DNA from: an uncultured Actinomycetes bacterium
GTDB lineage: Bacteria; Actinomycetota; Acidimicrobiia; Acidimicrobiales; RAAP-2
Reading direction: 5' to 3'
Assembly (NCBI GenBank): GCA_903893745.1
Contig: CAITNF010000002.1
Coordinates: 1-56,777, forward strand
Length of the DNA: 56,777 nucleotides
Position numbers and translations under genes: made by a program. Shown one piece after another: positions 12,520 to 15,661 of the stretch; position 1 is the stretch's first letter, and each line of letters starts with the position of its first letter. The notes beneath the pieces were generated by a model. It was not told the origin of the DNA. It saw only the letters and a list, made by a program, of their open reading frames with translations, and did not search any database.

Positions 12520-13008
12520 TTAGTCGCGGAAATTAGTGAACTGCAAGGGCACGTCGAGATCGGCCTCTTTAAAGTGGGCCATCGCTGCTTGCAGATCGTC
12601 GCGCTGCTTTCCAGTGATCCGAACCTGATCACCTTGGATTGACGAACTGAGATTCTTGAGCCCAAGGTCCTTGACCATTTTGTTGATCTTCTTGCCGACA
12701 TCTTGGGAGATGCCCGCTCGCAGGGAGACTTTTTGACGCGCGGCGCCTTGGCTGGCCTCTTCGATCTTGCCCGCGTCGAGAGTCTTCAGTGACACGGAGC
12801 GCTTGACCAACTTTTCTTCGAGCAGTTGGTAGAGCGCTCGAAGTCGATCCTCGGTCGACGCGCTGAGCGTGAGTTCTTTCTCCGTGAACTCGATCTTGGC
12901 GTTGGTGTTCTTGAAGTCAAAGCGGGTGGTGGCTTCGCGGTTGGCTTGATCGACCGCGTTACGGACTTCTTGTAGGTCGATCTCTGAGACGACGTCAAAA
13001 CTTGGCAT
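12520..13008 (-). CDS. yajQ: YajQ-family nucleotide-binding protein
   Basis: YajQ proteins are small two-domain alpha/beta proteins that bind nucleotides; some bind cyclic di-GMP and act as transcription co-regulators. The 162-residue product has the family N-terminus MPSFDVVSEIDLQEVRNAVDQ and TRFDFKNTNA (about residues 32-41). The C-terminal half contains KINKMVKDLGLKNLSSSIQGDQVRITGKQRDDLQ (in two stretches). Length is normal. A TAGCAT box on the minus strand ends 6 nt before the ATG, without a Shine-Dalgarno, suggesting a leaderless mRNA. Stop codons of this gene and GtrA abut in convergent orientation. Its ligand here is not shown by sequence. Confidence 0.93.
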   Translation of the reverse strand: MPSFDVVSEIDLQEVRNAVDQANREATTRFDFKNTNAKIEFTEKELTLSASTEDRLRALYQLLEEKLVKRSVSLKTLDAGKIEEASQGAARQKVSLRAGISQDVGKKINKMVKDLGLKNLSSSIQGDQVRITGKQRDDLQAAMAHFKEADLDVPLQFTNFRD

Positions 13009-13014
13009 GGGGAA

Positions 13015-13020
13015 ATGCTA
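13015..13020 (-). promoter_or_regulatory. -10 box for leaderless yajQ transcript
   Basis: TAGCAT (minus strand), 6 nt before the ATG at 13006-13008; no ribosome-binding site between. Confidence 0.5.
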
Positions 13021-13033
13021 GAGCCTTCGTCGG

Positions 13034-13063
13034 TTGGAAGCCCGACCCTCGTGGCAGTAGGAT
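13034..13063 (+). promoter_or_regulatory. Promoter of tRNA-Tyr
   Basis: TTGGAA (13034-13039), 18-bp spacer, TAGGAT (13058-13063). The box ends 7 nt before the first base of the mature tRNA at 13071, so transcription may begin at or within a base of the mature 5' end. Confidence 0.55.
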
Positions 13064-13070
13064 GCTCCAC

Positions 13071-13155
13071 GGGTCGGTGCCCGAGCGGCCAATGGGATCT
13101 GGCTGTAAACCAGACGGCTTTGCCTACGGGGGTTCAAATCCCTCCCGGCCCACCA
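13071..13155 (+). tRNA. tRNA-Tyr (GTA)
   Basis: A type II tRNA with acceptor GGGTCGG pairing CCGGCCC (one G-T wobble), anticodon stem TCTGG/CCAGA, loop CTGTAAA with anticodon GTA at 13105-13107, a long variable arm and the T-loop GGTTCAAATCC. CCA is encoded at 13153-13155. No other gene overlaps it if the mannosyltransferase starts at 13242. Confidence 0.95.
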
Positions 13156-13241
13156 AGGCCAATTCAGCGTTCGCTGGATTGGCCCTGCCCAGAAACGGAT
13201 CTTCGGAGTACGGTGGCTCTGTTCGTAACGAGAGGAGGGGT

Positions 13242-14855
13242 GTGCGTCGACTGCAGTCGTTGGCTCGAACCATCCGGCAACGCTATGAACAAGTAGCGGC
13301 TCGTTTTGAATCGGGCGTGCAGCTCCTCGAACATCGCTACACCCCGCTGGGCCGCTTTACCCCAGGCCCCTTTGAGGGTTGGAGCTTTCTCTGGCAACCC
13401 GCACTACTCGGCTTCGTGGCCATGATCTTGATTCTCGCGAGCGGTTCGTTCACCAACTCACCCTTCAAACTCAACATGACCGGCACGTGGTTCTTCGGTG
13501 AGCCGCTCTCGGGCAACGTCGGACTCGGCAGTGAGACCAAGTTGCTGCTCTCGATTGTCTTTATGCTCGCCGGACTTTTGTTGCTCATGCGCGTCTGGCT
13601 GCGTCTGGCTGAAGTAATGAAACTTCATCCGGGGGCCAAGCTCAAGTCGCTCTACTGGATCTTGGTGCTGTGGGCCACACCCATGATCATCGCGCCACCA
13701 CTCTTTTCGCGCGACGTCTTTAGTTACGCGGCCCAAGGTGAGATGACGAGTCACCACCTTTCGCCCTACATCTTGGGTCCCTTCTCGTTGGGTTCGAGTC
13801 CATTCGTGAATCCGGTAGACGCGCTGTGGGGCAACACGCCCGCGCCGTACGGTCCACTCTTTCTCTTTCTCGATGGTTCGATTGCGAAGTTAACGGGTCA
13901 TAATCAACTCGCCACCGTGGTGGGGCTGCGGCTACTCGAAGTGGGGGCGGTCGCACTCTTGGGTTTTGGAGTCACGATGTTGGCGCGCGGACTTGGTCGC
14001 GACCCCGGCGAAGCCCTCGTGCTCAGTGCACTGAATCCTCTCGTGCTCTTAACACTCGTCGCGGGCGCCCACAACGACGCATTGATGGCGGCCCTGTTGG
14101 TGTTGGGTATTGCGCTCGCGGTGCGTCGACGTCCGGGCTGGGGCATCATCTTGTGCGCCTGCGCCGCGTCGGTGAAGGCACCCGCGGCACTCGGCATTGC
14201 CTTTATTGCGTGGACGTGGGCCGGTCCGGGCGCCACGTGGCGCCGGCGCCTGCGCCAGATCTCGATCGCGTCGGGGGTAACCGCGGTCGTGCTCTCAATC
14301 TGGACGCTGCTCGCGGGCTTTGGTTTTGGATGGGTGCGCAATCTCTTGACCAACGGCACGGTGCGTTCGTGGGCGGCTCCGGCCACCGCGGTGGGTCTCG
14401 CGGTGAGTTACACCCTTCGCGCGCTCGGGGCAACGGCAATTTCGGTAGGAGGGACGCTGAGTGTGACCCGGCTGCTTGGTGCGCTCGTCGCGCTCTCGTT
14501 CGCGGGGTGGCTGCTGGTGCACGCGAGTCGCCGAGGCTGGGTGCGCTCACTGGGACTGGCACTCGTGCTGATTGTTGAACTTGGTCCCGTGGTGCAACCG
14601 TGGTACTTGGCCTGGGGGCTGATGCTGCTCGCGGCCAGCTATCAAGGTCGTGAACACTTCTGGCTGCTACTGCTCTCCATTACGGGTCCCTTTATTGGGA
14701 TCCCGGGCGGATCGACGTTGCTCGCGGGTCTCTTGCACAGCAACCCGTTGCTGATCGTGCTGGCCTTTGCGCTCTTGGGCGGCGTGTTAGTGGCGCCGAT
14801 GGGCCGCTGGACCCAGTGGTCGTGGCCCGAGCAGGTCGCCGAACTGTCGGTCTAG
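13242..14855 (+). CDS. MptB-like polyprenol-phosphate-mannose alpha-1,6-mannosyltransferase
   Basis: A 537-residue integral membrane protein with about a dozen hydrophobic segments, resembling GT-C (GT87-type) mannosyltransferases such as actinobacterial MptB. MptB extends the alpha-1,6-mannan core of lipomannan from polyprenyl-phosphate mannose outside the membrane. Supporting motifs are an early extracytoplasmic SRDVFSYAAQGEM (about 154-166), which supplies a candidate catalytic Asp, then PAPYGPLFLFLDG, LNPLVLLTLVAGAHNDALM, CAASVKAPAALG and VVQPWYLAWGLMLLA. GTG 13242 follows AGGAGGGG closely. An upstream in-frame start would run through the tRNA gene and is rejected. The sugar donor and acceptor are family inference; the GT-C membrane fold is well supported. 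Confidence 0.8.
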   Translation: MRRLQSLARTIRQRYEQVAARFESGVQLLEHRYTPLGRFTPGPFEGWSFLWQPALLGFVAMILILASGSFTNSPFKLNMTGTWFFGEPLSGNVGLGSETKLLLSIVFMLAGLLLLMRVWLRLAEVMKLHPGAKLKSLYWILVLWATPMIIAPPLFSRDVFSYAAQGEMTSHHLSPYILGPFSLGSSPFVNPVDALWGNTPAPYGPLFLFLDGSIAKLTGHNQLATVVGLRLLEVGAVALLGFGVTMLARGLGRDPGEALVLSALNPLVLLTLVAGAHNDALMAALLVLGIALAVRRRPGWGIILCACAASVKAPAALGIAFIAWTWAGPGATWRRRLRQISIASGVTAVVLSIWTLLAGFGFGWVRNLLTNGTVRSWAAPATAVGLAVSYTLRALGATAISVGGTLSVTRLLGALVALSFAGWLLVHASRRGWVRSLGLALVLIVELGPVVQPWYLAWGLMLLAASYQGREHFWLLLLSITGPFIGIPGGSTLLAGLLHSNPLLIVLAFALLGGVLVAPMGRWTQWSWPEQVAELSV

Positions 14856-15565: not shown

Positions 15566-15571
15566 TAGAAT
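15566..15571 (+). promoter_or_regulatory. -10 box of the tRNA-Thr/tRNA-Met/rpmG transcript
   Basis: TAGAAT, 18 nt before the mature tRNA-Thr 5' end, leaving a leader of about 11 nt to be removed by RNase P. A weak -35 (CTGGAAA) begins about 19 bp upstream. Confidence 0.45.
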
Positions 15572-15587
15572 CTCACCTCGCATTGAT

Positions 15588-15661
<74 letters not shown>

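Follow-up and report, generated by a model that had tools for sequence, protein, structure and literature searches.

In bacteria, RNase P is generally credited with forming the 5' end of every tRNA. Eukaryotic tRNA-Sec, one special tRNA, is transcribed by RNA polymerase III from an external promoter; its transcription starts at base 1 and the 5' triphosphate is retained, and a paper on tRNA[Ser]Sec reportedly uses the phrase 'leaderless pre-tRNA'. The bacterial tRNA-Tyr gene that we describe here is alike in a base-1 start with a kept 5' triphosphate, both of them predicted in our case, and unlike in that RNA polymerase III, the external promoter and the restriction to a single special tRNA belong to the eukaryotic system.

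Leaderless tRNAs have also been described for archaea that are devoid of RNase P (PMC10941002, PMC4368725, PMC3491384); here and below, what we say of published work refers to the excerpts of each paper on which we draw. In Nanoarchaeum equitans the promoter stands at a fixed distance, so that transcription begins directly on the initial purine of the tRNA and no 5' leader is made (PMC3491384, PMC10941002); our locus is alike in this respect, with a start that is predicted. There, the arrangement is archaeal, with box A 26 nt upstream, extends to all tRNA genes and compensates for the missing RNase P, whereas here a bacterial TANNNT box stands before a few tRNA genes of a genome that carries genes for RNase P RNA and protein. 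The leaderless mRNAs of actinobacteria share the -10 motif and overlap with our locus in how far this box lies from the start of the gene (PMC8079986, PMC3890552). In our case, however, what follows is not a start codon but a structural RNA, the 5' end of which RNase P would otherwise produce.

We found no leaderless bacterial tRNA in the excerpts of the literature searched. Most tRNA genes of P. acnes are transcribed singly, and the authors name RNase P as the source of the mature 5' ends (PMC3848588). For S. lividans, 67 start sites are assigned to tRNAs in a text whose excerpt does not say where they lie with respect to base 1 (PMC8079986), and the portion of the S. coelicolor work used here deals with maturation by RNase P and with unusual cuts at the 3' side rather than with leaderless tRNAs (PMC4681348). 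The authors of the C. glutamicum map removed the start sites of rRNA and tRNA genes (PMC3890552). Leaderless actinobacterial tRNAs could thus have been overlooked because tRNA start sites were dropped from at least one published map.

The window, by which we mean the whole stretch of 56,777 nt that was analysed, carries a tRNA-Tyr gene for which a first-pass annotation had described a promoter placed for transcription from the mature 5' end. Both boxes, the 18 bp between them and the 7 nt to base 1 were all located as that annotation had described them (Table 1). ARAGORN and Rfam agree on G13071 as base 1, and by folding the 7-bp acceptor stem GGGUCGG/CCGGCCC fits this position; the tRNA folded alone (z -0.11) yields nothing beyond that stem. 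A consensus scan of 12900-13300 returned no sigma-70 promoter, because the -35 element is weak, and no terminator. The case for the promoter rests on the -10 box, a TANNNT at start distance as in sigma-A-type promoters. With 150 and 167 occurrences of TANNNT on the two strands of the 56,777 nt, or about 0.3 % of positions on each, a single exact placement is weak evidence by itself.

Table 1. Positions of the tRNA-Tyr promoter, its neighbours and the start sites considered, in coordinates of the window.
Feature	Position	Strand	Remarks
-35-like box TTGGAA	13034..13039	+	weak element; missed by consensus scan
-10 box TAGGAT	13058..13063	+	separated from the -35-like box by an 18-bp spacer
Discriminator GCTCCAC, 7 nt from -10 to tRNA	13064..13070	+	C at -1 in 61/61 relatives
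Predicted transcription start, G1 of tRNA-Tyr	13071	+	position 8 downstream of -10; inferred from leaderless-mRNA calibration and published start preferences
Rival start, A at tRNA-Tyr -2	13069	+	position 6 downstream of -10; purine there in 59/59 seven-nt relatives
tRNA-Tyr(GTA), 85 nt, CCA encoded	13071..13155	+	ARAGORN; Rfam RF00005, 52.6 bits
Divergent DUF520 family gene	12520..13008	-	Pfam PF04461, 204.3 bits
-10-like box TAGCAT of the divergent DUF520 gene	13015..13020	-	6 nt before ATG; leaderless-mRNA layout
-10-like box TAGAAT of tRNA-Thr, leadered contrast	15566..15571	+	18 nt before tRNA-Thr

Conservation of the box spacing in relatives had been put forward as a check, and the spacing is conserved. 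From named public genomes 80 loci were kept out of 393 confirmed, many of them Acidimicrobiales or Acidimicrobiaceae MAGs, and 78 have a tRNA-Tyr gene. The named relatives that were scored are the 61 tRNA-Tyr genes of loci L132-L194: 59 of them have a TANNNT that ends 7 nt ahead of base 1, and in the other 2 this distance is 6 nt. A same-genus set, which shares members with the named set and to which the genome of the window itself belongs, is made up of the 33 genomes with a match out of 37; it gives 7 nt in 32/33 tRNA-Tyr genes and 6 nt in 1/33. The 17 tRNA-Tyr genes of loci L195-L211 comprise one that is without a box at 3-25 nt and others with boxes at 7-14 nt, the 7-nt cases being L204 and L196, the latter a same-genus record. 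In other families of the order, 23 of 25 tRNA-Tyr genes have the box at 8-16 nt and 2 have none.

Within the 59 seven-nt genes, mean pairwise identity is 39 % in the 18-bp spacer and 66 % in the discriminator. The 88 % identity of the -10 box and its invariant T, A and last T are partly due to construction, the genes having been picked for TANNNT; even so chosen, the three free columns are G in 54, G in 48 and A in 50 of the 59. A TTGG is found at a spacing of 19 nt in 31 of these genes, of 18 nt in 4 and of 17 nt in 3 (38/59 in total). On sequence comparison, the -10 box of tRNA-Tyr is a conserved element at a fixed spacing while the intervening sequence drifts. The first base of the tRNA is G in 61/61 named relatives, a purine as in N. 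equitans. It corresponds to position 8 downstream of the -10 box in the 59 seven-nt genes and is followed there by G2; position 7 is C in 59/61, and the other two, which have the 6-nt spacing, have G1 at that position. The promoter distance in about sixty related genomes should set the start at or within two bases of tRNA-Tyr base 1.

The leaderless mRNAs of the lineage provide an internal ruler for the start site, because the start codon is there the start site. Among 1135 candidate ATG starts, TANNNT ends 6, 7 and 8 nt upstream in 126, 52 and 46 cases respectively, with 3 at 5 nt, a median of 4 and no enrichment at 9 nt; counted by gene family, there are 36, 17 and 16 at these distances versus 5 at 5 nt. 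The ruler from GTG, which matches a G start better than ATG does, is weaker: 23, 20 and 47 of 2130 starts lie at 6, 7 and 8 nt, with 14 at 5 nt, another 23 at 13 nt and a median of 7 (by family 26, 17 and 7, with 10 at 5 nt). Candidate TTG starts carry no box-distance signal. In three genomes with 138 tRNA genes together, no TANNNT was found at 0-5 nt before any of these genes, which is what one would expect if 6 nt corresponds to a leader of zero. The first-pass annotation had likened the tRNA-Tyr spacing to that of leaderless mRNAs, and 7 nt does fall among the distances of these mRNAs (6-8 nt before ATG). A fixed promoter distance, as in leaderless tRNA genes, is present at tRNA-Tyr within that range, and we infer a start on base 1 rather than at -2.

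Published start-site preferences agree with this ruler. Start positions 6, 7, 8 and 9 downstream of the -10 box take 8, 55, 29 and 7 % of initiation respectively; a pyrimidine before the start, a purine at it and a G after it are favoured, and a CCT discriminator shifts the start from 7 to 9 (PMC5730371). For actinobacteria, the excerpts give a distance from -10 to start of 6.3 on average in S. lividans, with 5-7 nt in 88.7 % (PMC8079986), a -10 box centred at -9 on average in P. acnes (PMC3848588) and a range of 3-11 nt in C. glutamicum (PMC3890552).

Our preferred explanation is that a housekeeping sigma-A-type promoter 7 nt upstream would let RNA polymerase begin mainly at base 1 of tRNA-Tyr. 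The C at -1 would present a pyrimidine in the usual start position, so that the start would be displaced by one base to G1. In that case the final 5' end would already be in place on the primary transcript, as a triphosphate, and this RNA would need no RNase P cut and would be processed at its 3' side only; the same layout is common to tRNA-Ser(CGA), tRNA-Ser(TGA) and tRNA-Lys(CTT) of the lineage. We consider it probable that tRNA-Tyr transcription starts mainly at G1 and without a leader. This is favoured by genes that offer no purine from offset 5 to base 1 (18/29 for tRNA-Ser(TGA) and 23/26 for tRNA-Lys(CTT)), and the two 6-nt tRNA-Tyr relatives likewise have no purine between offset 5 and base 1, leaving G1. 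The weaker GTG ruler and the shorter distances in other actinobacteria count against it. We considered whether the C at -1 proves that a start is leaderless and rejected this: tRNA-Gly(GCC) shares this base in 30/30 genes with boxes at 9-12 nt, and C at -1 is therefore not an exclusive mark of leaderless starts.

In the main rival explanation, transcription would begin at -2, on the purine A13069, and RNase P would trim the resulting leader of 2 nt as usual. A purine is found at -2 in 59/59 seven-nt tRNA-Tyr promoters and in 26/29 of tRNA-Ser(CGA), which counts against the G1 start, and the mRNAs of equal 7-nt spacing mostly have a pyrimidine at the matching place (68/89). The resulting 5-nt distance would be within the common range of S. 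lividans (PMC8079986), and both the average box position of P. acnes (PMC3848588) and the RNase P genes of this genome agree with such a start. ATG starts of the lineage, however, are not in excess at 5 nt, and position 6 takes the small share given above (PMC5730371). The base preceding the purine is G in 45/61 relatives and not a pyrimidine, and the purine itself is missing in the two 6-nt relatives. We regard this alternative as unlikely, though it deserves to be kept in mind.

Alternatively, starts may be spread over -2, G1 and G2, such that tRNA-Tyr would be partly leaderless and partly made via RNase P or discarded. Purines at offsets 5, 7 and 8 would permit this, ATG starts are themselves spread over 6-8 nt, and the promoter of the nearby tRNA-Thr gene has a G at offset 8 in 48/48 cases scored. 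Since a start at G2 would yield a tRNA lacking base 1, and the spacing of tRNA-Tyr is tighter than such a spread would need, we think this quite improbable.

The surroundings of the gene bear on a third alternative, in which the main start lies further upstream, at another promoter or by read-through, with an ordinary RNase P cut and a minor role for the close box. The weak -35, the consensus scan without a promoter and the presence of both RNase P genes would fit this. The divergent gene of the DUF520 (YajQ) family begins 62 nt from tRNA-Tyr base 1 in the window, counted from its ATG; of the 61 relatives, 58 have a start of this gene within 80 nt, and there it is 48-73 nt away. A transcript from further upstream would be antisense to the divergent gene because that gene starts at this distance. 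With the box of tRNA-Tyr moreover held at 6-7 nt in 61/61 relatives, we judge a main start further upstream to be very unlikely, and a start at G1 remains the reading that we favour.

The divergent gene has a box of its own, and while the gap to tRNA-Tyr varies, the distance from this box to the ATG is kept, at 6 nt in 51 of those 58 relatives and at 7 nt in the other 7. Two leaderless-type boxes stand back to back within 62 bp between tRNA-Tyr and DUF520, an arrangement seen in 58/61 relatives. On the other side, a gene of 537 aa (13242-14855, + strand) lies directly downstream of tRNA-Tyr; it has no Pfam match at E 0.001.

The first-pass annotation had expected the effect to be specific to tRNA-Tyr. 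At the level of spacing this does not hold, since two tRNA-Ser genes at 7 nt and tRNA-Lys(CTT) at 6 nt share the layout and keep it in the genus. The window's own genome has 46 tRNA genes, 33 of which have a TANNNT at 4-20 nt and 13 of which do not. The distance is 6 nt for Lys-CTT and 7 nt for Tyr, Ser-CGA and Ser-TGA (4/46 at 6-7 nt); 25/46 lie at 9-12 nt (six at 9, seven each at 10 and 11, five at 12), with single genes at 17 and 18 nt and two at 20 nt. Across the genus, tRNA-Ser(CGA) has the box at 7 nt in 29/29 and tRNA-Ser(TGA) in 29/30, the remaining one being placed at 6 nt by ARAGORN beginning the gene one base early. For tRNA-Lys(CTT) the distance is 6 nt in 23/26 and 7 nt in 3/26. 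As controls, Gly(GCC) has its box at 9-12 nt and Val(CAC) at 9-11 nt, each in 30/30 genes.

The contrast drawn with tRNA-Thr was borne out: its promoter would leave a leader, with a box 18 nt off and thus farther than the 7 nt of tRNA-Tyr. For tRNA-Thr(GGT) in named relatives the box lies 22-42 nt upstream in 48/49 genes scored, the farthest match being taken. By eye, the tRNA-Thr leader of relatives often contains a GC-rich inverted repeat (CGCGTC...GACGCG) just before the tRNA, which is weak in the window (15572-15589).

Some further observations concern individual tRNA genes. In tRNA-Val(CAC) (L331-L359, L074) the box is mostly at 9 nt, and offsets 6-8 before G1 are nearly all pyrimidines; either transcription starts at a pyrimidine there, or it starts at G1 from an unusual distance, 9 nt being one at which ATG starts are not enriched. 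Many of the tRNA-Ser(TGA) promoters (L243-L272), inspected by eye, have a purine run (CAAGAAG, AAAAAG) about 25-40 nt upstream that replaces a TTGACA-like -35. The 3' part of tRNA-Lys(CTT) is present in several copies of 42-54 bases, 94-100 % identical, within single genomes (C43, C46 and C48 of G029; C4, C10 and C16 of G036), as left by mobile elements integrating in that gene.

One conceivable cause of the layout, a loss of RNase P, was rejected. The genome contains genes for both the RNase P RNA (RF00010, 252.5 bits) and the RNase P protein (PF00825, 57.6 bits). Nor does it show the N. equitans combination of absent RNase P and leaderless tRNA genes throughout, since 4/46 of its tRNA genes have the 6-7 nt spacing. 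RNase P, of which both the RNA and the protein are encoded, thus coexists with tRNA genes of leaderless type and with others of short leader, and the layout is not a Nanoarchaeum-like replacement of RNase P.

Outside the genus the layout is seen mainly at tRNA-Ser. Two complete genomes from other families of the order have the box at 8 and 8 nt for Ser(CGA) and at 7 and 7 nt for Ser(TGA); one has Arg(TCT) at 6 nt, the other Pro(TGG) at 8 nt, and neither has Tyr at 8 nt or less. In a sample of the phylum, 43 of 90 genomes gave a match and 29 loci were read besides the window's own. The box lies exactly 7 nt before 19/47 tRNA-Ser genes, found in 15/29 loci, and no other distance is represented by more than 4 genes; for 4 of these 19 the position of base 1 was corrected by one nucleotide, and the uncorrected counts are 15 at 7 nt and 6 at 6 nt. 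C stands at -1 in 18 of the 19. One tRNA-Ser gene has a match at 4 nt and another at 5 nt, in both cases next to a second box, which counts against our preferred explanation. The sampled loci of the same order or class (L446, L447, L448, L453 and L458) have no tRNA-Ser at 7 nt (0/5). The tRNA-Ser layout is therefore patchy: either it is old and has been lost many times, or it has arisen more than once. The layout at tRNA-Tyr seems to have been added in this lineage.

Bacterial tRNA genes with putative leaderless-type promoters in a genome that bears RNase P appear to be new, being unpublished as far as the literature was searched. We propose tentatively, with confidence that is close to balanced, that Actinomycetota may repeatedly place some of their tRNA genes for transcription from the mature 5' end despite having RNase P. 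Some of the tRNA in the cell would then bear a triphosphate at its 5' end and would not pass through 5' processing, with tRNA-Ser affected in many lineages and tRNA-Tyr and tRNA-Lys(CTT) in this Acidimicrobiales genus. This could be tested with tRNA-Ser in laboratory actinobacteria or in existing 5'-end data. If the proposal is true, triphosphate-bearing tRNAs are predicted, which certain protocols overlook or misinterpret. Some tRNAs of a bacterium would then skip RNase P although the enzyme is present, and this would suggest a stepwise route to the loss of RNase P for an organism such as Nanoarchaeum.
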